The notes beneath the pieces are model-generated. The model saw nothing but the letters and a program-made list of their open reading frames with translations, searched no databases and was not told the DNA's origin. The position numbers and the translations under genes are program-made. A DNA stretch of 64,000 nucleotides from positions 816,486 to 880,485 of the forward strand of contig NZ_CP022523.1 in NCBI RefSeq assembly GCF_002850255.1, given 5' to 3'. Shown here piece after piece: positions 19,929 to 31,000 of this stretch (position 1 is its first letter; every line of letters starts with the position of its first letter). Source of the DNA: Pseudoalteromonas sp. NC201. GTDB taxonomy: Bacteria; Pseudomonadota; Gammaproteobacteria; Enterobacterales; Alteromonadaceae.

Positions 19929-21872
19929 GCGGTTTTCTGGTTCTGTTATTTTTACTTTAACTTGGTTTGCGCTAAGTGTTTTTGGTGAGTCAGCTAAAAC
20001 CTTAAAAGGATGTAGTTGAACATCTGTGATCAAGCGAGTCTGCTCGTCGGATTTGCCCAATGTATCCAAAACTTGCGTGTTGATGTTATAGCGCCAGATA
20101 GTCGCCTGTTTGTCGGGAATAATCAGCTCATTCCCACGTAGATAAAAACGCCAATGCAATGTGATTTTGTTTGTTATTGGCTGTGGTTTGAGCGAATTGT
20201 TGACGAGTACTTTTAAGTTTGGCTCATCTGGTGTGGCTATATAGACAGTACCGTTTTGCTGTATTTGTGCCCAGTGAACCTGCCCCTGATAAAGTGGCTG
20301 TTTATGGTTGGTTACAGGGTCGAAAAGTACTAGCTGTTCATCGCCAAGATCATTGATGAGAAGGTAGTTACTTCCTTTTATTTCAATTGATTGCATTATA
20401 ATTTGCTTTTCAAATAAAGCCGGAAAAACTTCAACGCCAGTGACTAAATTGATTTTCAGTAAACTTTGTTTTGATGCTGCCCACAATTGTTTACCATCGG
20501 CTGTCCAAACAAAAGACGAAATATGTTTGTTATGGGTGAGCGGGATCTCTTGCTGTTCTTGCTTTAACCAAACTTCATTGGTGCCTGTACGATTAGAGAG
20601 AAATGCAATGGCATTTCCACTTGGTTGGAATTGCCCTGATAGCTCGTCGTAGTGGCTGATTGTAAGTCGGCTTGTAGAGAGGTTGTCTTGAATATTAATC
20701 TGCTTTTGTTCTCGAACTAGTGTCGCTAAATAGCTATTACCTTTAATGTATTCAGTGATGTAAAACGATTCTGAGCCGATTGCCGGAATGGCTTGTACAA
20801 GCTTGAGGTTTTGAAAAATATAGAGCGCAGATGCGGTTGAAAGTATGTGTGTTGTATCTGGCCCTTCTACTAACATCAACGAACGGTCTAATTCTACATC
20901 AGACAATTTTTCTTGTTGAAGAAGAAAAAGCTCGTTTTCTTTGCTAATCATATAACTAGAGAGATAAGCCTCTTCATCTGGATCTTGGGTGAGTAAAGTA
21001 AGTTGATCCTCATTAAATGAGGACGCTAAAATTGTTGCTGCTATAGGTAAAGAAGTAAATGTGACTGAGTCTGATTGCGGAGTAAAAAGGGCATACTCGT
21101 TATTGGCGATAAGTAACACTTGATGACCAACCCAGTAGGCTTGTCGCACTTCGTTATTTAAGCAAGGAGAGATCACTTTTCTGGCAGCAAATCTTGGTAA
21201 CACGACGATAGCTTGATGACACTTAGCTTGTGATTTTGTTTTGCGTGTTTCAATGAGTACTGCTTTTTTACCCTCTTTGTTAAGCTGAGGTTTGCCAACA
21301 AAATCCAATGCACGGGTAACTAACTTGGTTGTTTGGAAATCCAAATCCTTTACTTTTAGTTCCGCTGCTTGCGGTGTTCTGGCCACATATAATAACCTTC
21401 TACCTGAGGTGAGTGTCGCAGTGCTTTCCAACTCCAATCCGTAACTTACAGGTGTAACCTCTGAAAGTTGGAAATTAGCTTTTGGCATAGTTGAATAGCT
21501 AAACAATATACCGAAGAGGATGATGAAACCTGCGAAATAGAGAGCACTGGTTCTCAGCTTTTGGCTTAAATTAGTATGCTGCTCCCCAACCTGTAAACGA
21601 TAGCCCTTTTTATGAAAAGTCTGGATAATACGTTTATCACTATCTCCAAGTAGTTTTCTAAGCTGAGCGATGCATCGTTGAAGGGCATTTGGGGCGACGA
21701 CGGTATTTTGCCATACAGAATTAAGTAGGTGCTCTTGCGTAACAAGCGTGCCGCGATGCTGATAAAGTATTTCAAGTACTGCCAGCACCTTAGCCTCTAA
21801 TTTGATTGTCTCATCAAGGTAGGTAAGTTCACCCGTGGCTAAGTCTAGCTTACGGTTATTGATTGTTATCAT
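19926..21872 (-). CDS. CadC/ToxR-like membrane-anchored regulator with beta-propeller sensor
   Basis: 648 residues. Residues ~1-95 are an OmpR/PhoB-type winged helix (LEAKVLAVLEILYQHRGTLVTQEHLL, NALQRCIAQLRKLLGD, IIQTFHKKGYRL). A single membrane segment (ALYFAGFIILFGILFSY) lies near 112-130. The remaining ~500 residues are repeats of short strands as in TolB/PD40-like beta-propellers (AIAFLSNRTGTNEVWL, FVWTADGKQLWAASK), expected in the periplasm. The layout is that of one-component regulators that sense an outside signal and bind DNA directly. Its targets are unknown; it lies beside the MNIO operon (95 bp away, same strand) and convergent to the esterase gene. Confidence 0.8.
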   Translation of the reverse strand: MITINNRKLDLATGELTYLDETIKLEAKVLAVLEILYQHRGTLVTQEHLLNSVWQNTVVAPNALQRCIAQLRKLLGDSDKRIIQTFHKKGYRLQVGEQHTNLSQKLRTSALYFAGFIILFGILFSYSTMPKANFQLSEVTPVSYGLELESTATLTSGRRLLYVARTPQAAELKVKDLDFQTTKLVTRALDFVGKPQLNKEGKKAVLIETRKTKSQAKCHQAIVVLPRFAARKVISPCLNNEVRQAYWVGHQVLLIANNEYALFTPQSDSVTFTSLPIAATILASSFNEDQLTLLTQDPDEEAYLSSYMISKENELFLLQQEKLSDVELDRSLMLVEGPDTTHILSTASALYIFQNLKLVQAIPAIGSESFYITEYIKGNSYLATLVREQKQINIQDNLSTSRLTISHYDELSGQFQPSGNAIAFLSNRTGTNEVWLKQEQQEIPLTHNKHISSFVWTADGKQLWAASKQSLLKINLVTGVEVFPALFEKQIIMQSIEIKGSNYLLINDLGDEQLVLFDPVTNHKQPLYQGQVHWAQIQQNGTVYIATPDEPNLKVLVNNSLKPQPITNKITLHWRFYLRGNELIIPDKQATIWRYNINTQVLDTLGKSDEQTRLITDVQLHPFKVLADSPKTLSANQVKVKITEPENR

Positions 21873-21967
21873 TATTATTTGGGAGCAGCAGTCGATACAG
21901 CTAGTCTATCTTGTATTGGATATAAAAATAACCCATCAAGGTTTATTTCACTTTATTAACTGAGCCA

Positions 21968-22852
21968 TTATTTAGAAAATTGGATCACTGGTTCATTTTG
22001 TAACGTAAACAGCCCCATATTACTAGCGCTTGGCAGCCAAACTGCTAACTGCGATTGCAGCGCTTGTTGATCCAAGTTTAGGTGGTTAGCGCTGTAGGTT
22101 ACCGCTTCTTGATAGCGTAGCGGTTTGTTTCTCAGATGTAGTAATAAGTCTGCTTGCCAGTCATTCAATACACTCATTTTGATGCGATATTGTTGGCGCG
22201 ATATTGCAATATGCGTTTGCTCAGGCGTTGGCAAGGTGTACGGCTTTGCTTGCTCAAGCTGGGTTATAAGCGGCAGCAAAGGGTAATCGGTTTGAATAAG
22301 CTGTACTGATTCAGGCACCGACATGACAAAATTTTCTGCGATACCGCAAAGGAGCTCAATCTCGTTTATTACTGCAGTTGATTGCTCGGTTTCCGGTCCT
22401 GGTTTTAACAGTGCAAGCGCTTTGGCTCTTTCAAACTTAGCCAGCTCTGAAGGCAAGCTAAACATAGCTTGCTGGTGGGCATTAAAATCACCGGTGGGTT
22501 TTGTGTGTGCTAAAAAATCAGCGAAGCGCGAGCCTAGTTGATGTAGTGTCCAAGATTCTGAGGGTAAGGTGACGATAAAGGCTTTGGCGAAGGTGTCGAA
22601 TACTTCGTCGCCCATAAACTGGCGAAGTAGTGCAAACTCTCCCCGAAGACATTCGACTAAACGCATCACATAGCCTGCAGCATAGATGTCTACTCTTCTC
22701 ATGGCTCCCAGTGTTTTACTACTTTTTACACAGTCATGCAGCGTTAAACCATGCGGATTTGCAGCGGTATTGAGTTTTTGTGGTAGGTCGCCTCGCACCA
22801 TTAAAACGGTGCTAAGCCACTGCTGAGTTTGCGTTAAGTCTGGCGTTTTCAT
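21968..22852 (-). CDS. DUF2063 family protein, MNIO partner (HvfC/BufC/MbnC-like)
   Basis: 294 residues. The N-terminal ~120 match the DUF2063 domain: R-x-x-IYAAGYVMRLVECLRGEFALLRQFMG, then a FDTFAKAFIVTLPSESWTLHQLG stretch. In the characterised cases (MbnC, HvfC, BufC) these proteins bind the precursor and work as partner of a DUF692 iron oxidase. The C-terminal part is a winged-helix-like region with LQSQLAVWLPSASNMGLF. Its start overlaps the stop of the MNIO gene by 1 base (ATGA type), which means tight coupling. The family call is secure; the partner role follows from the context. Confidence 0.85.
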   Translation of the reverse strand: MKTPDLTQTQQWLSTVLMVRGDLPQKLNTAANPHGLTLHDCVKSSKTLGAMRRVDIYAAGYVMRLVECLRGEFALLRQFMGDEVFDTFAKAFIVTLPSESWTLHQLGSRFADFLAHTKPTGDFNAHQQAMFSLPSELAKFERAKALALLKPGPETEQSTAVINEIELLCGIAENFVMSVPESVQLIQTDYPLLPLITQLEQAKPYTLPTPEQTHIAISRQQYRIKMSVLNDWQADLLLHLRNKPLRYQEAVTYSANHLNLDQQALQSQLAVWLPSASNMGLFTLQNEPVIQFSK

Positions 22853-23802
22853 TATGTTAATTCTGCTCGCTCTTTGACGATTGGAGTTGACAGCGCGTTG
22901 GTGTTAGTAACTGTATCTTGCTTTGGAATATGCCCTGCCAGTACCAGTTTTGCTTTGCTTAACTCATCAACGAGTTCAGGAAAGCTGGGGATATTGGCAT
23001 CCCATTCAAGTAAGGTAGACACGCCACCCGTTAACTGCTGCGCCAGTTGGTAAAGCTGCCAAACCTTGGCGGGCACTGGTTGGTCATGGGTGTCTATCAA
23101 ACAATCACCGCAGTCGCTAGGACCGGCTAGATGGATTTGAACGATGTGCTCATGGGGGAGTTGACGAATAAACGCTTCAGCGTCAAAACCATGGTTAAAG
23201 CTACTAACAAAGACGTTGTTTACATCCAATAGCATGCCGCAGCCTGTTGCGGTGACTAACTCACTAAAGAACTCGCTTTCAGTGAGGGTTGAATGTTGAA
23301 ATTCAAGGTATGTTGATGGGTTCTCAAGCACCAAAGGTCGCTCTAAAAAATCCTGTACTTGATCAACACGGTTGATAACGTGTTGTAGGCTTTCGTCAGT
23401 TAATGGCATAGGTAGGAGATCGTGACTATTCAAACCAGCAACGCCTGTCCAACACAAATGATCGGAAATAAGCTGTGGCTGAACGAATTCACTTAACTCC
23501 TTGAGCTTGCCTAAGTATTCAAAGTTAAGAGGGTCGCTGCTACCAATATTCATTGACACACCATGCATCACTAGCGGGTATTGTTCCTTTAACTGAGCGA
23601 GCACATGCCGACCATAGCCGTGATTATCTATATAGTTTTCACTGATGATTTCAAACCAGTCAACATCAAGCGATGCTCCGCGTTCCAATTGAGACATGAT
23701 AAAGGGATAGTGCTGGCTTCTCAGGCCAACACCAAGCCCTAAGTCGGTTAGTTTTTCGATAGCGGACGCAGCAAGCTGCTGCGTCCGAATTGGATTTGTC
23801 AT
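22852..23802 (-). CDS. DUF692 / MNIO multinuclear iron oxidase (HvfB/BufB/MbnB-like)
   Basis: 316 residues in a TIM-barrel fold of the MNIO family. Expected metal ligands are visible: H80 in MHGVSMNIG, H115 in SDHLCW, E160 in VLENPSTY, D193 and N195 in LLDVNNV, H224 in QIHLAG, D237 and H239 in IDTHD, and E266 in LLEWD. MNIO enzymes use two or three irons and oxygen to modify Cys residues of peptides (oxazolone/thioamide, or other products). It sits 13 bp downstream of the ferritin-like gene and overlaps the DUF2063 gene. The substrate is inferred to be the Cys-rich tail of the ferritin-like protein, since no small precursor gene is seen nearby. Confidence 0.9.
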   Translation of the reverse strand: MTNPIRTQQLAASAIEKLTDLGLGVGLRSQHYPFIMSQLERGASLDVDWFEIISENYIDNHGYGRHVLAQLKEQYPLVMHGVSMNIGSSDPLNFEYLGKLKELSEFVQPQLISDHLCWTGVAGLNSHDLLPMPLTDESLQHVINRVDQVQDFLERPLVLENPSTYLEFQHSTLTESEFFSELVTATGCGMLLDVNNVFVSSFNHGFDAEAFIRQLPHEHIVQIHLAGPSDCGDCLIDTHDQPVPAKVWQLYQLAQQLTGGVSTLLEWDANIPSFPELVDELSKAKLVLAGHIPKQDTVTNTNALSTPIVKERAELT

Positions 23803-23815
23803 GCTATCTTTCCTA

Positions 23816-26143
23816 TCAAGTTGATGGAGGAAGTGCTAGACGAATATCTGAAGGTTTTGGCTTCTCTTTAGGTTCGCCATCTTCGTTCAATAAACCATTG
23901 GCATTGCAGTATGCTTGCCAAGCAATATCGTATACGGCATCCCCTTGTTTATAAGGCATTAGCACATGATCTGCAGATTGACCGGTTGGAGCTTGTTGGT
24001 CTTTCGGGTAAGTGTAATCCATTGGAGAGAAAGTATTATCTTTTAAGTTAAACTTAAATAGTTGCATATCGTATTCTTGGTCTTCACCAGAAAGTTCAGG
24101 GAAGAGTTGAGAGGCTGAGATAGGCACTGCACACCCACCCAAGTTATTACACTTATTATCTGCAGGTGCACTTTTTGGCCCTGTTGATACGCTACCACCA
24201 CAGCTACCGCCGGGCGTTGTGCTATGAACAAAGCCGCAACCACCTTGTGCTTTACAATCATTACTGCCTTTACAACTGTGATATACCTCAGGAGGTGGTA
24301 AGTCATTCGAACCTATATTGGTATAGCTCATTCCTTGGCAGGCATGATAAAGGGCGTTCGGATTTTGTGGGGCGATACCCGTTACTAAATCCGGCGCAAT
24401 TCCCGTGGTTGCCCAGCAAATCGAGATCCTATCGCCAGAGCCACCCATCGCAGGGCCCGGAAATTCACTGGTTTTACCAGACCAATAACGATCAAGTGCA
24501 GTAGTTAGACCTTTAATTGTGCCTACCGCAGATTGACTGAATAATTGATGCGTATTGCCAATATTTGACGAGAGTTTAAGGTTGTTAAGCGCTTTTACTA
24601 CACTGCTGACGCAAGGTAGATTTGGGTTTTGCTTAGCTGCTTCATCATCGCCGTTGGGGTCCAATAACGCCTCATTCCAGCTATTACCCTCAGCAAACCA
24701 AGTTGACCAAGTCATGTAACGTTCGTCTGGTTGACTTGAAGACTTCTCAAAGTCGACAATGAGCCTCATAGTATCGGTAAATATTTGAAAGTGATCTTTG
24801 TATTTATTAGTGATCCGGGCACACGCCGAACCGGAAATTGGACCCTCACCGCAGCTTGCGGGATAATCCGCCTTCAATGCTTCTGCACTAGGTTGAAACT
24901 TCTCTTCTACGGTGCTGAGGTGGGGATCATCCGCTTCATCCGCTTTCGCTGCTAGGAGGTTTTGTGCCCATTTCTCATCAGCCCAGCGTTTACAAATCAT
25001 TTCTGCCACACCATCACCTTCTCCTTGATCAGTAATGGCATTTACATTATTCATTAACGCTTCTTTTAAAACAGTATGATCTTCTTTTACGTTGAGAGAG
25101 CCCTTAATACCTGGGAATTGTGGCTGATAATCTTTATTACCAGGGCGCTCATTAAAATAGTCGCGCTGAATGGTTGCATAGTCGAGCAAGCTTGTGCCAT
25201 CGTCATACTGGATCTGGATATAATCCCAATAGCTGAGGTACATGTGTCCAATCGAGCCAAACAGCGGCAGGTTTTTCTCAGTGTAATCTGGTTTCCACCA
25301 GTCATAAGGTGCCTGCTCAAAATATTTTGGCCGTTTTGTGTCTTTGTTTGGTTCTAAATATTGCTCTTGGATAATTTTCTTTGCGTTTTCTTCCGTTTCT
25401 TCAATCAACATAAAGAGTAGTGTCTGCTCTTTGTTGAGTTCAGTGGCATTAACGCGTAGATCTTGTAACGTTTTACCTGGGAAAATTTGTTTGAAGTAAG
25501 CTTGAATCTCAGGGCTCAGTTGCGACAAGTCTTTGGTACAGTCTGCAAAGTCCAAAATATGTGGAATACCACTTTGGTTGTTGTAGCATTTCCAACCATA
25601 GTTTTCATCAATCAATGCCGGACTTGTAAAGCTTGGTGTGAGTCCCAACTTACTTGCCATATTGGAAGCAAGCTGTAAATGGAGCATTTCTTCAATGAAA
25701 ACACTATATACGCCATTAAAAACTTGCTGATTGATAGTTAACCTAAACTTATCCGACAAATCGCTGGGTTTACTATCACTAACTAACGTATTTATATCGA
25801 ATAACGGCGCGAGATCAACGTCATATTGACTACGGCGCTCTTCCGGGATATATCCAGCTGTTGGACCAAGTCCTGGCCAATAACGTCCTGGATAAAGGTT
25901 TGATGAATCAGCGATCGCATGGGTGCCTTGAATGGAATAAAGGCCTGTCATGTATAAAGGGATAGTGAATAATTCTACATTTATTGCGGCTTGTGCTATT
26001 GCCCTAAGGCAAGATAAATCAGCGTTCTTGTATTTGCTTGCGCGTGCTTTTATTTGCTTCTTTTGTGTACTGCTGAGGATGATGTTGGTGTTGAGCTCTT
26101 TGTTTATTTTTAAAGGCTGACTCTCTTTATTCTGCACATTCAT
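23816..26143 (-). CDS. Ferritin-like (VioB/RebD-type) protein with bufferin-like Cys motifs
   Basis: 775 residues. Residues ~40-330 look like the ferritin-like domain of iminophenyl-pyruvate dimer synthases: AQAAINVELFTIPLYM, VFIEEMLHLQLASNMAS and LFMLIEETEENAK carry the Glu/His pattern of a di-iron or related site. The middle part is helical without an assigned fold. At ~602-671 there are seven cysteines: C602, C624, C630, C636, C648, C665 and C671. C624-C630-C636 form CX5CX5C (SCKGSNDCKAQGGCG) and C665-C671 form CX5C (KCNNLGGCA), the arrangement known from MNIO-modified bufferin-type precursors. It is first in an operon with the MNIO and DUF2063 genes. No signal peptide is visible at the N-terminus. 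That the Cys tail is the modification site is inferred; the ferritin-like call is moderate to good. Confidence 0.75.
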   Translation of the reverse strand: MNVQNKESQPLKINKELNTNIILSSTQKKQIKARASKYKNADLSCLRAIAQAAINVELFTIPLYMTGLYSIQGTHAIADSSNLYPGRYWPGLGPTAGYIPEERRSQYDVDLAPLFDINTLVSDSKPSDLSDKFRLTINQQVFNGVYSVFIEEMLHLQLASNMASKLGLTPSFTSPALIDENYGWKCYNNQSGIPHILDFADCTKDLSQLSPEIQAYFKQIFPGKTLQDLRVNATELNKEQTLLFMLIEETEENAKKIIQEQYLEPNKDTKRPKYFEQAPYDWWKPDYTEKNLPLFGSIGHMYLSYWDYIQIQYDDGTSLLDYATIQRDYFNERPGNKDYQPQFPGIKGSLNVKEDHTVLKEALMNNVNAITDQGEGDGVAEMICKRWADEKWAQNLLAAKADEADDPHLSTVEEKFQPSAEALKADYPASCGEGPISGSACARITNKYKDHFQIFTDTMRLIVDFEKSSSQPDERYMTWSTWFAEGNSWNEALLDPNGDDEAAKQNPNLPCVSSVVKALNNLKLSSNIGNTHQLFSQSAVGTIKGLTTALDRYWSGKTSEFPGPAMGGSGDRISICWATTGIAPDLVTGIAPQNPNALYHACQGMSYTNIGSNDLPPPEVYHSCKGSNDCKAQGGCGFVHSTTPGGSCGGSVSTGPKSAPADNKCNNLGGCAVPISASQLFPELSGEDQEYDMQLFKFNLKDNTFSPMDYTYPKDQQAPTGQSADHVLMPYKQGDAVYDIAWQAYCNANGLLNEDGEPKEKPKPSDIRLALPPST

Positions 26144-26412
26144 AGCTTGCTCCTTGATGACGGTGGACTTGCTGCATTTTTTCGCCTAATAGCCTGTAGT
26201 ATTGGATATATATGTCGAACTATTGCAATTAAGTTAATAAAGTTAAGTGATTGGTTCAGGTGAAAACACCACTCTCTTTAGAAAGTAGCTGTAAAAGTAA
26301 AAAAAGGCGATTACACAAGATTACGGGGTGGGGATTATATGTTGTGTCTAAACGTAGATCGTTATTAGAAGTGAGTAATCAATAATTACTCACTGAATTT
26401 AGCTAGCAAGTC

Positions 26413-27007
26413 TTACCGTTCGCAATAGTAACTAGGATCCGGTACTGGGAATTCAGGCAAACGTTCACAACCTTCAAACTGTACCTGTGGCGATTCGAAA
26501 AGAGGTGCGCTTCGATACTTACCTTTGACTGAAAAGCTACTCGGTGCCGTAATTATCCGAGGTTTTGGATCAAAGTTTATGTTGAAACCATCCGCCACCG
26601 CTTCATAGGTCATAGCCCAGTTTGAAAATAATTGAGGGCTATTCAACCTATACATCGAGTCAGCTTTATATACATCAAACCATTTACGAGCCAAAATACT
26701 TTGACCTGACTTCAAAATGATAAGAATACGGTTATCTTTAATGTGATTTATATTATATAAATTATTTATTTCAAACTCTAACTTGGATGCATCCATATTT
26801 AAAAGGTTAATTCGACCATATTGATCGAAAATTTCTGGTGCAAAAGTTTGAATAATTGAGTTGGATGAAGAGGAACCACCAATAATAACTTGGCATTGAA
26901 TAGACACTCTGCCTTGAGCGTGCTCTGCATTCGCTGTCATTTTACATCCGGATTAGTGCAACTAATAAATTTGCAGCGATAATTGAGTTTCTAAATTTAC
27001 AATTCAT
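26413..27007 (-). CDS. Secreted or lipoprotein gene with an apparent frameshift in the signal peptide
   Basis: The intact frame 26413-26940 gives 175 residues (MTANAEHAQGRV...), beta-rich with no recognised family. Just upstream, from the ATG at 27007 with AAGGA 6 nt before it, lies a signal-peptide-like stretch (MNCKFRNSIIAANLLVALIR) in a different frame that stops at TAA 26944-26942, one base before the ATG at 26940. Removing one C of the CC pair joins the frames as LVALIGCKMTANAEHAQ, a perfect lipobox. So the gene either suffered a one-base change, has a sequencing error, or restarts at 26940. Three cysteines are in the mature part. It lies upstream of the MNIO operon on the same strand but 270 bp away. 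Function unknown. Confidence 0.5.
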
Positions 27008-27057
27008 AAAATATCCTTTTTAATATGAAATTAGTACTGCAAGGAGGAGATTAGTTA

Positions 27058-28020
27058 ATGTGTACAAAAAGATCAATTTTAATTGTTGTTTTATTTTTTC
27101 TTATTAGTTCTGGGTGCACTTCAATAGGTCGAAGTGTTATGAGTAAATCATTGAAATATGAGTTAAAACTAGTTATCGACACAGAGTTGATAAATGTCAA
27201 AAAAATTGAAAGGAAATTAAAAAAAGGTGAGTACACGTTGACTTATGACTTTTATCCAAGTGATATTTCAATCAAGGATGACATTGATATGAATGTTGAA
27301 ATTAATGGTATCAGTGCCGGTTACAAAATAGTGAGAGAAGAGCAGGCTCGGGCTCTCGATTTGAGCGGGCAGCTAACTCTCTTGATCCCCGGTTTTGCCG
27401 TGGATAAATCACTACTGACTTCCTACGCGATTTGGTTTTCCTCATTGGGATCAGATGTCATTGTAATGGACTTGAAAAGCGTTGATGAAACTACATTTTC
27501 GTTTGGTAGTAAATTGGTCGCCTATTATCCTGAATTATCGTCTAATTATAAGTCAGTCAATGTTGTCGGATTTTCTATGGGCTTTCTACCGGCATTGCAT
27601 ATAGCTCAAAAGTATAACCCTAGTAATTTGATTGGTGTGGCACCATTTTTAATTAGGGAAGACTTAAATGTTGCTGCCTCAAAAACGGTTTCATATATTG
27701 AGTACTTGCCGCAAGGATTAATCGATAAGGTGATAGATTCATATTTAATTGAAAATGATTTGCAAAAGTACTTCTCAGATGGACTTGAAGTTGTTAATTA
27801 TTATGAAAATCTATTAGTAATTAATTCAGGTAAAGATGATGTACTTCCTGAGTCAAGCAAGTTGGTATTAAAAAATCACTGTGCACAACAGTTTTTTATA
27901 CCTAATTATCAGCATCATTTACTTGCATCAACGCCGACAAATGAAACAACAAAGCTACTCGTACAATTTTTGGGAGATTTATCGCGTAGAGATAGAAATA
28001 AAGATTGTTCGAAAATATAA
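27058..28020 (+). CDS. Lipoprotein of alpha/beta-hydrolase fold
   Basis: 320 residues with a lipoprotein signal (LIVVLFFLISSGC). A hydrolase pattern follows: LTLLIPGFAVDK near the oxyanion strand, then VNVVGFSMGFLPALHIA with the Ser elbow GFSMG, and a late acidic/His pair in NSGKDDVLPE and NYQHHLLAST. That suggests a serine hydrolase (esterase or lipase-like) in the envelope. A strong ribosome site (AAGGAGG) precedes the ATG. The divergent gene starts only 50 bp away at 27007. AT-rich compared with surrounding genes. The fold is likely; the substrate is unknown. Confidence 0.65.
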   Translation: MCTKRSILIVVLFFLISSGCTSIGRSVMSKSLKYELKLVIDTELINVKKIERKLKKGEYTLTYDFYPSDISIKDDIDMNVEINGISAGYKIVREEQARALDLSGQLTLLIPGFAVDKSLLTSYAIWFSSLGSDVIVMDLKSVDETTFSFGSKLVAYYPELSSNYKSVNVVGFSMGFLPALHIAQKYNPSNLIGVAPFLIREDLNVAASKTVSYIEYLPQGLIDKVIDSYLIENDLQKYFSDGLEVVNYYENLLVINSGKDDVLPESSKLVLKNHCAQQFFIPNYQHHLLASTPTNETTKLLVQFLGDLSRRDRNKDCSKI

Positions 28021-28040
28021 AAGGCTGATTGCTCAGCCTT
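28021..28040 (+). terminator. Rho-independent terminator
   Basis: AAGGCTGA-TTGC-TCAGCCTT followed by TTATATTTTT directly after the stop of the hydrolase gene, and 18 bp before the end of the convergent protease gene. Confidence 0.9.
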
Positions 28041-28057
28041 TTATATTTTTATAGTAA

Positions 28058-31000
28058 TTAGAACTTAGACGGCGCAGGAGGCACTGTCAGTGTTTTCTTC
28101 GGGCTATCTTTTAACTCTTTCAACAGCTCCTTCACTGCACGCTCGACAGAAGGGTCTTTACCGGCATGAACAAGCTCTGGTCTATCGATCACTTCGATAT
28201 CAGGGCTCACACCCTCGTTTTCGATGATCCAATTGCCTTCGTTATCTAGAATTCGGAAGGTTGCAGCGATAACCTGACCTCCGTCAACAAGACTTGGATT
28301 ACCCGAGATACCGATAAGGCCACCCCAAGTGCGAGTACCAATCAGTTTGCCAAGACCTGCCTGACGGAAGTAGTAAGGTAGGGCATCACCACCCGAACTT
28401 GAATAACCATTGATAAGCATGGCTTTTGGACCATCGTGGGCAAATTGTGGAGTTTTTGTTGGCTCAACACCACGGCGTTTCCAATAGTTAAGTGGCTTAC
28501 GAGCAAGCCAAGTGATCATGTGCTCAGGGATAAAGCCGCCGCCGTTATAACGGTCGTCGATGATCAGCGCATCTTTGCTCGTTTGTGGCATAAAGTTCTT
28601 AAATAATGAACGGTTACCATCATAATGAGTATTTGGTAGGTGAACGTAGCCAATCTTACCGTTTGATAATTTATCCACGTAGTCAGCACGTGATTGAACC
28701 CATGCCATGTAACGCAAGCCTTGTTCGCTGGCAACAGGTTTTACCGTGGTTTTCCAGCTATCATCAGCGCTTGGTGATTTACTCAATACCAACTCAACTT
28801 GCTCGCCTTGGGTGTTTTCAAGTAGTTCGTAAAAGTTAACCACGTCTTTTACCGAGCGACCATTGACCGAGATGATGTAATCACCCTCATCGGCATTCAC
28901 GCCGGTTTCATTGAGTGGTGAACGGTAGTCTTCATGCCAGTTCTCACCTTTGTAGATACGCTCAATTTTAACGTAGCCAGACTGATGAGCACTTATTTCT
29001 GCACCAAGTAAACCATGCTTTTTGCGCTCGGCTGTTGGGGCATCACCAGATTGTACGTAGATGTGACCTGCGTTGATTTCACCCGCAATTTCACTAAGTA
29101 CATAGTCTAAGTCGCTACGGTGTGCGACAGCGCTGGCAAGTGGTTGATACTTCTCCAAGATAGCATCCCAATCTTGACCATGGTGATGTTCGTCGTAGAA
29201 CCAGTCGCGTAATGTGCGCCAGCCTTCTACATACATTTGTTGCCACTCAACTTTCGGGTCTATTTTCAGTGTCATCTTAGATAAATCAAGCTGACTGGCT
29301 TTTAAATCTTGCTTTGGCTTTGGTGCAATTACACTGAAGTTGTTACCAGCGCGAGCGATCAGGTGCTTACCACCAGCGGCAACTTTATAGCTGCTTACGC
29401 CTTCGGCGACGGTTTCTAGTTTGCTATCTGGTTCTGTGCCGAGGAGCTTTAACGCACCGCCTGTTAAAGTCAGTACGCCTCCTTCAACACCTGTAAGCGA
29501 ACCGTAATTACCTGCTGGGGCTGAGAGTGATACAACCCGTGACATAAAGCCGTTGGCCTCAATGCGATTTGGTTGTTTGTCGCTGTCCTTTTTCGTTTCA
29601 TCGTCTGATTGAATGCTTAACTCATCACTTTCAAAGGCATTAAGCGGCTTGATCTGACTATTCACCGCAACGCTATAAATGCGCGTGGCATTATTAAACA
29701 TATAATCAAATTCATAGCTGCTAAAGGTGAGGTTATAGTCGCGCTCAGAAGTGAAATAAATGTAGTTACCGTCAGGAGAGAAAGTAGGGTTACGCTCACT
29801 GGTCATGTTGTCAGTCAGTCGAGTGACCTTTTTATCCTCAGTGTTATAGTGCCAAAGCGAGGCGTAGCGGTTTTCATTGTTTTTAACAAAAACAATATCT
29901 TCACTGTTTGGCGACCAAGTATATTCAGTTAGACCATCTTCGTCGTATTTGGCGGTGTCAATTTTATGCATATCGCCAGATTTCGCATCAACCCACCATA
30001 GCGTGTGGTTTTTATCTGCGAAGAGTAGTTTGCTGTTATCAGCGGACCAAATTGGTGTAAAGCGCCAGATGGTACCATTGTCAGTTAACTGGATGGTTTT
30101 GTTGTTATTTGCTCTATCTTTGAGATAGATCTCATATTCACCTGTTTTATCGCTCATGTAGGCAATATAACGGCCATTCGGTGACCAGCTTGCTTCAATT
30201 TCACGACCTTCTGGTGTGTAAGAGAGGTTACGAGTTGGACCCTGTTTTACTGGGACTGAGAATAACTCACCACGGGCAGTAAACAATGCACGCTTACCAT
30301 CGTGTGATATATCCATAGAATCGATAAAGTCGCTAACGTTTTTACTATATGGCATGGCATATTGACGCACACCAGCAACATCGATTTTTAGCTTTTTAGT
30401 TGTCTTTGTCGCTTCGTCAAAGCGATATAAGTAACCGCCATTTTCGTAGACAATGGCATCTGGTCCGGCTGATGGCCACAGCACGTCAAAGTCTTTGTGG
30501 TCAGTCATTTTAACCGGTGACTTGCCATCGCGATATTTATAAAGGTTGAGCGTGTAGTCACGATCAGACACAAAGTAAATACTGTCATTCACCCAAGTTG
30601 GTTGTTGATCGGTGGCTTTGTCAGTGGTGAGTTGTTTAGACGTATTGTTTTCAAGGTCGTAAATCCATACATCCTGAGCTCGACCACCACGAGAGCGCTT
30701 CCAAGTTCTAAACTCTCTGTCGATTGGTGTGTAAACATACTTATTACCATCAGGGGAGAGCATACCACCACCCGTTTCTGGAATGGCCATCGGCTGCTCA
30801 AGTCCACCTTCTACTGGTACCATATACGGGCGACCCATACGTTTGCCCCATGGTGTGCGATTTGCTCTAAAAACGATATGTTTACCATCGGGTGTCCAGT
30901 CCATCACGCGATAGTCGAACCCACCGCGAGGAGGCATTTGACCAACATCGTTGTAGTAAGTGAGTTGCTTTAATCCTGAACCATCAGCATTGATCACATA

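Follow-up and report, generated by a model that had tools for sequence, protein, structure and literature searches.

The window analysed here is a 64,000-nucleotide stretch of the 5.38 Mb, two-contig genome of Pseudoalteromonas sp. NC201 (contig NZ_CP022523.1, positions 816,486 to 880,485), and our subject is an operon on its minus strand that encodes a ferritin-like protein with an internal cysteine (Cys) module, an MNIO (DUF692) oxidase, and a DUF2063 partner protein. The features, in operon order and in window positions, are:

26150..26155, minus strand: AAGGAG, read from the sequence as a putative ribosome-binding site for the ferritin-like gene.
23816..26143, minus strand: ferritin-like protein that contains the Cys module and is the putative substrate of the MNIO, 775 amino acids (PF12902, E 3.7e-18).
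25004..25993, minus strand: PF12902 ferritin-like domain match (Pfam), residues 51-380.
24098..24352, minus strand: Cys module, about residues 598-682, recognised by its conserved Cys and, by profile comparison, homologous to a separate gene in loci drawn from Bacteroidota.
23819..24097, minus strand: residues 683-775, C-terminal of the Cys module and closing with an invariant PPST (alignment, model).
22852..23802, minus strand: MNIO/DUF692 oxidase, 316 codons (PF05114, E 6.2e-104, 347.3 bits against a cut-off of 25; NCBIfam MNIO_BufB, 345.7 bits against a cut-off of 310).
21968..22852, minus strand: DUF2063 partner, PME-type 1, 294 codons (PF09836, 57.3 bits against a cut-off of 27.2).

The stop codon of the ferritin-like gene is separated by 13 bp from the start of the MNIO gene, and the MNIO and DUF2063 genes overlap by 1 bp (base 22852). 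The coordinates, strand, gene order, gap, and overlap given in a first-pass annotation are all confirmed from the sequence, and its three gene identities are confirmed by the Pfam matches. The partner protein also has a candidate RRE-type C-terminal domain (NGO1945_C, 18.5 bits, under its cut-off of 27). Among open reading frames (ORFs) of at least 20 amino acids with at least four Cys at positions 20000-29000, none lies between the operon genes or upstream of them in the operon direction, in agreement with the first-pass annotation, which saw no small precursor gene nearby. Scans for promoters and terminators gave background levels (9 promoter-like sites, 8.8 expected; 2 terminator-like sites, 4.5 expected).

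The ferritin-like protein has seven Cys in residues 602-671 (602, 624, 630, 636, 648, 665, and 671), spaced CX5CX5C at 624-636 and CX5C at 665-671, in the sequence contexts HAC602QGM, C624KGSNDC630KAQGGC636G, C648, and NKC665NNLGGC671AVPISASQ. The seven positions and both motifs are as the first-pass annotation described them; its placement of the segment in the tail of the protein does not hold, since 93 residues come after the module, with predicted strands and helices and mostly modelled at fair to good confidence. The bufferin motif CKGxNxCKGxGGC, which that annotation had named as similar, does exist: a precursor-like ORF that has a hydrophobic N-terminal stretch and adjoins an MNIO (L244) carries HACKGMNECKGKGGC. 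Residues C186, C576, C602, C624, C630, C636, C665, and C671 are identical in 64/64 rows of one alignment and in 89/89 rows of a wider one, and C648 is identical in 89/89 rows of the wider alignment and in 52/64 rows of the other, in which its linker is poorly aligned. In the best 120 of 647 fused relatives, the module signature is present in 107 by a strict pattern and in all 120 by a looser one, and 12 of the 13 proteins that fail the strict pattern keep the motif with small changes. In the AlphaFold2 model of the 775-residue protein (pTM 0.91), pLDDT means over 10-residue blocks are 57-68 for residues 621-670, and four of these five blocks (57-60) show less order than any other part of the model after its first 20 residues. 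Such low modelled order may fit a segment that is the substrate of an enzyme.

The three-gene arrangement is conserved. In 63 related loci fetched from genome contigs (64 rows with the window), an MNIO gene lies directly next to the ferritin-like gene on the same strand in 63/63, with a gap of at most 218 bp, and a DUF2063 gene is found in 62/63, the missing one being at a contig end. Because the search seeds for these loci, derived from the query, included LYHACQGM, the corresponding count for the module (63/63) is partly built in; the MNIO count is unaffected. The closest relatives of the ferritin-like gene are in P. flavipulchra (91% identity) and P. piscicida (89%), and the system occurs, according to record titles and lineages, in Pseudomonadota (alpha-, beta-, and gammaproteobacterial genera), in Bacteroidota, and in one Ignavibacteriota genome. 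Within Pseudoalteromonas there is a match in 20 of 99 genomes, the NC201 genome counted; of the other 19 matches, 13 were fetched, and these comprise 12 full triads and one remnant (L173, 8129-9363) in which a single deletion begins near codon 104 of the ferritin-like gene and extends into the last MNIO codons, and DUF2063 remains. The 76 loci examined share no further widely conserved gene family around the triad, proteases included. A DyP-like ORF stands beside 6 of the 76 loci, in Bacteroidota (L016 6399-7961, L018, L019, L020, L048, and L170); of two such ORFs tested, that of L016 gave a weak DyP_N match under the cut-off and that of L048 gave none. The DyP-like ORF was rejected as an extra conserved operon gene; two of its six loci (L018 and L170) are one place.

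A survey seeded on PF12902, and not on the Cys motif, shows that the module goes with the oxidase. The genomes searched numbered 369 from the class, 398 from the phylum, and 395 from the phylum to which a Bacteroidota genome belongs, and all 41 PF12902 matches outside the window were fetched with flanks as far as the contig allowed; the counts omit L157 and L170, both in G845, a genome chosen since the system was known there, leaving 39 rows. The Cys module is present in 12/12 loci with an MNIO and in 0/27 loci without one (Fisher p 2.6e-10, kinship ignored; L169 is probably the same place as L023, and L163, L165, and L166 are close kin). Six of the MNIO loci have the module within the PF12902 protein (L118, L131, L133, L168, L169, and L119, where His replaces one Cys), L131 being a second, divergent fusion, and in the other six it is the next gene (L159, L160, L162, L163, L165, and L166). 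In the 27 MNIO-less loci, the module was found in neither the PF12902 ORF nor, by profiles at E<=0.01, any other fetched ORF, and when MNIO-less loci were scanned by profile over all that had been fetched, 0/28 had a module-like ORF, although a neighbour could be missed at L114, L120, L124, L132, and L161, which sit on short contigs. Leaving out six weak partial PF12902 matches among the 27 gives 12/12 versus 0/21. When profiles were run on all ORFs of 13 MNIO loci (L170 counted), the fused-tail model detected 9, the split model 12, and the two combined 13/13. The co-occurrence of CX5C motifs and MNIO that the first-pass annotation had suggested looking for among homologues is thus observed, and its central inference, that a substrate motif for the oxidase lies inside the ferritin-like protein, gains support from a module that in the survey is found only with the MNIO, whether fused or as the next gene. 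We conclude that the MNIO/PME1 pair accompanies the Cys module in a conserved operon, in which the module stands in cis or in trans to the ferritin-like protein.

The split loci have the gene order PF12902 ORF (456-531 residues), 192-228-residue gene with 13-17 Cys, MNIO, DUF2063, and the Cys part of the second gene reads, roughly, HxCMGLNxCK ... NxCAGxGxC ... HxCHTLNxCKGQGGCG ... NxCxxQGSCxxPI. Among the best 120 of 357 relatives of the split protein, on which patterns were scored, 90 have the strict signature and 115 the looser one. By profile comparison, the fused and split modules are homologous (score 69.5, E 1e-11; maximum of 50 column-permuted controls, 21.9). The first-pass annotation had regarded a separate small precursor gene as contrary to its reading; such a gene does exist in one lineage but is a homologue of the fused segment, and so it refines that reading without refuting it. 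The C-terminal parts of the two forms look alike by eye, yet their score of 15.3 falls short of the highest of 50 permuted controls (16.2), and we claim no homology between them. The model of the split small protein has a mean pLDDT of 65.6, and comparison of its fold with the PDB gave no match at E<=0.001. Further upstream of the split operons, not adjacent to them, are ORFs that by eye resemble an oxidoreductase dependent on flavin adenine dinucleotide (FAD; L159, 3803-5698) and thiamine-dependent decarboxylases (L163 and L166).

The split form provides a weak link, at the level of sequence profiles, to the BufA2 bufferins. The split module matches a BufA2 profile with a score of 40.1 (control maximum 15.8), and the NCBIfam BufA2 model (NF050166) matches two split proteins at E 2.3e-4 and 7.4e-4 (19.7 and 21.3 bits, cut-off 60). 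Of the five matches that a search with the split profile gave in 228 Bacteroidota genomes, four are loci already known to lie beside PF12902; the remaining one, weak at E 1e-5, is an ORF resembling BufA2 that starts with a hydrophobic stretch and is accompanied by an MNIO of its own. The same search of 224 Pseudomonadota genomes had the L131 fusion as its sole match, and the profile is insensitive to fused modules of the window type, as the NC201 genome and G845 gave no match. The published adjamnio-I class (122-293 amino acids, 8-21 Cys, no signal peptide, PME-type 2; PMC12452194) could overlap with the split protein: compared by description, the split proteins agree with it in length and Cys number, and the L166 partner is PME-type 1.

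The MNIOs linked to PF12902 are a group of their own. In a 61-row MNIO tree, the 37 sampled PF12902-linked MNIOs form one group (support 99/94), which subdivides into 30 fused rows (99/96) and 7 rows comprising the split loci and L131 (100/99), and the EGKCG, Buf1, and Buf2 MNIOs fall outside it. Since L131, a fusion, lies inside the split group, the fused or split state has changed at least twice on this tree. In a tree of PF12902 itself, the fused proteins and the split/L131 proteins form two groups; with weak deep branches (72/87), several long rows, and 19 of 41 survey rows lost to a motif-based domain cut (one of them, L119, MNIO-linked), two independent recruitments are only a possibility. 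The window MNIO contains DVNN and DTH, equivalents, mapped by motif, of the reported site-3 ligands N175, D242, and H244 of HvfB (PMC13419390), at least 97% conserved in 64 rows. The NC201 genome has three MNIO loci, and the MNIOs of both paralogous loci fall outside the PF12902-linked clade. At one paralogous locus (L001 678-2836; G000:C2, ~935-937 kb), a precursor of BufA2 type with 12 Cys, which scores 125 bits against NF050166, is accompanied by an MNIO and a DUF2063 partner of its own; the other (L002 740-3068; G000:C1, ~1524 kb) has an EGKCG-repeat ORF of 194 amino acids, followed by an MNIO and by a 249-amino-acid ORF in the partner position.

Neither form of the substrate candidate has a detectable signal peptide. 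A home-made test for an N-terminal hydrophobic stretch (threshold 1.6) found one in 0/120 of the best 120 of 357 split proteins and, before the first ferritin helix, in 1 of the 118 scored among the best 120 of 647 fused proteins (P0077; P0008 and P0094 were unscored); the window protein scores 0.66. The bufferin controls had the stretch in 13/13, the best of several Met starts being taken. According to a published rule, precursors with signal peptides pair with PME-type 1 partners and signal-less ones do not (PMC12452194). The partners in the window, L131, and L166, whose candidate substrates lack a detectable signal peptide, carry the DUF2063 signature over its cut-off. On these sequence criteria, the PF12902-MNIO family departs from the rule.

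The ferritin-like part belongs to the PF12902 family and is modelled with a ferritin-like fold. Compared with the PDB, the window model has a sole strong match, 3hl1, spanning residues 27-587, and the carboxylate and His candidate ligands E57, E152, H155, E248, E375, and H451 are invariant in the 89-row alignment. The first-pass term 'VioB-type' is right at the level of the PF12902 family and does not extend to VioB itself: no NCBIfam model, VioB (TIGR04492) included, matches the window protein at E<=10, and a VioB function was dropped on this ground. Partial, sub-cut-off VioB matches occur in 4 of 7 PF12902 proteins scanned, and the database name 'iminophenyl-pyruvate dimer synthase' given to relatives looks like family over-annotation. 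The window protein thus shares the Pfam family and the ferritin-like fold with VioB and CC_0557 (3hl1); it differs from them in that the VioB model has no match here and that the surveyed MNIO-less PF12902 proteins lack the Cys module. One MNIO-less locus (L164, 8077-11319) has a 1080-residue ORF that fuses PF12902 with FAD desaturase-like and Rieske-like parts.

From these results we infer Cys modification, with its chemistry and its metal, and joint action with the ferritin-like domain. According to the hypothesis that we favour, and consider probable, the three genes are a maturation operon in which the Cys of the module are oxidised and the finished metal-binding segment works with the ferritin-like domain. 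In the cytoplasm, the MNIO and the DUF2063/RRE partner would bind the ferritin-like protein before its maturation; C624, C630, C636, C665, and C671 of the flexible module, and perhaps C602 and C648, would be oxidised, with 5-thiooxazoles, which have been reported in the products of related MNIO-PME1 pairs, as the likeliest outcome; and the matured module would stay attached as a segment that binds a soft metal, probably copper, and acts jointly with a ferritin-like domain that is probably di-metal and redox-active. In some lineages, drawn from Bacteroidota, the partner of a free-standing ferritin-like protein would be a separate module of ~200 residues, acting in trans. The chemical step is modelled on MNIO-PME1 products that carry a Cys-derived 5-thiooxazole and bind copper (PMC13097082; PMC12452194) and on HvfBC, which likewise converts Cys to 5-thiooxazole (PMC13419390). 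We hold more tentatively, as possible, the fuller proposal of a ferritin-like metalloenzyme that acquires a second metal site from its own Cys through a dedicated MNIO, with a thiooxazole or related cofactor that would be built into a cytosolic protein of full size and would occur in a split/fused series.

Several observations weigh against the maturation hypothesis. The Cys tail alone has no NCBIfam or Pfam match, NF050166 matches neither the fused protein nor its tail, direct comparison of the fused tail with BufA2 is weak (score 25.9, probability 36.5), and a small home-made BufA2 profile matched 3/6 split loci and 0 fused ones. C630 is the Cys replaced by His in L119, the position following C624 or C630 is variable in the 64-row alignment, and no widely conserved neighbour beside the triad names a metal. 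In the fused-family MNIOs, the position of FonB Phe250, which is Asp in Cys-Lys MNIOs and is reported to contact the substrate Lys (PMC13097082), is Ala in 62/64 (Ser in 1, motif not found in 1); elsewhere it is Gly/Ser/Asn in split and L131 MNIOs (7/7), Phe in EGKCG MNIOs (8/8), Asp (2/3) or Ala (1/3) in Buf2 MNIOs, and mixed in Buf1 MNIOs (Ala 3/13). The residue following HxAG is Pro in 50, Arg in 10, and Leu in 3 of the fused family (63/64) and His in split and L131 MNIOs (7/7). Because of the Ala at the specificity site and the residues found after HxAG, substrate handling or chemistry may differ from that of bufferins.

The main competitor of the maturation hypothesis, likewise compatible with the present data, is a borosin-like arrangement in which the ferritin-like domain would be a second tailoring enzyme and the module a substrate held in cis for the MNIO and the domain, released or not, the split form being an ordinary RiPP cluster. 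Its gene order fits exactly, since the split loci read enzyme-like, precursor-like, MNIO, partner; borosins are known with enzyme-fused substrates and with split versions (PMC8429565; PMC7878506); and the invariant carboxylate/His candidates, the match to a solved ferritin-like protein, and the inclusion of VioB-like proteins in PF12902 all suit a domain that is itself an enzyme. We nevertheless rate it as rather unlikely: the fused module has after it 93 residues, most of them modelled at fair to good confidence, neither a protease nor any other family is widely conserved in the loci examined, no export signal was found, and, because module-less PF12902 proteins without an MNIO exist, the domain can do without the module.

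Other roles for the module are less likely still. The protein could serve in metal storage or detoxification only, with a ferritin-like scaffold carrying a matured module as a copper sponge, in effect a cytosolic bufferin; the link of the module to bufferins and the protection against copper afforded by bufferins and oxazolins (PMC12452194) point that way, but about six or seven conserved module Cys per 775 residues are few for a sponge, and a scaffold would not need the ferritin-ligand candidates that are invariant here, so that we find this account improbable. We give least credence to an unmodified module that forms a zinc or other structural metal site, with the window MNIO acting on a substrate encoded elsewhere. 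Invariant Cys in cytosolic proteins are often plain metal ligands, and the NC201 genome does encode BufA2 and EGKCG precursors; those precursors, however, adjoin their own MNIOs, outside the window clade, the surveyed module occurs only with an MNIO, the L173 deletion removed the ferritin-like body and the MNIO together, and the split module occupies the classical precursor position.

Of the published systems, the BufA2 bufferins ('Cys-Lys' captophorins; BufB, BufC) share with the window system an MNIO with a DUF2063 partner, the order substrate-MNIO-partner, Cys-Lys motifs, the profile link via the split form, and an MNIO over the MNIO_BufB cut-off; the window system differs in having no signal peptide found, a module that is joined to a ferritin-like protein or encoded beside one, and an MNIO in a separate clade with mostly Ala at the substrate-Lys site. 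The oxazolins, fontiphorin, and gonophorin (EGKCG, Lys-Cys captophorins; HvfABC) share the MNIO-PME1 pair, and their 5-thiooxazole chemistry is our working model, but the window module has no EGKCG repeats and EGKCG MNIOs lie in a remote clade and carry Phe at the specificity position. Large or fused bufferins (Buf1-cytochrome c-FGE, MerC-Buf, EGKCG-EF-hand, and long EGKCG repeats) are a precedent for MNIO motifs in bigger proteins (PMC12452194); they belong to signal-peptide-bearing families, whereas the present case is a widespread, conserved ferritin-like family in which no signal peptide was detected. TIGR04222 membrane proteins with an MNIO, possible full-size substrates with a Cys-rich C-proximal segment (PMC12452194), differ in being membrane-bound and in having a PME-type 2 partner or none. 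Borosins likewise have substrate fused to enzyme, with split versions elsewhere, but use other enzymes and another chemistry. Modification of full-size proteins by MNIOs has already been proposed as a concept (PMC12452194). The main text of that paper contains neither 'ferritin' nor 'VioB', a mention being possible in its supplementary tables, and PMC13097082 does not contain 'ferritin'; the mentions of 'ferritin' checked in PMC8224329 and PMC7907618 come from the title of a cited work, the name of a ferredoxin, and Dps, none of them connected with an MNIO operon. A search of the main texts of openly readable papers gave no paper that couples MNIO terms with ferritin-like proteins. The idea of protein modification by MNIOs and a few bufferin fusions are already published, and the ferritin-like architecture is not found in searchable texts.

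Most demonstrations of MNIO chemistry so far concern small peptides, of which many are exported. If the PF12902-MNIO operon indeed provides a cytosolic, full-size substrate, MNIO chemistry would move from natural products to protein cofactor biogenesis. Because the family departs from the published link between signal peptide and partner type, it can be used to test recognition of leaderless substrates by DUF2063 partners, and its split and fused versions are ready-made pairs for tests in vitro.

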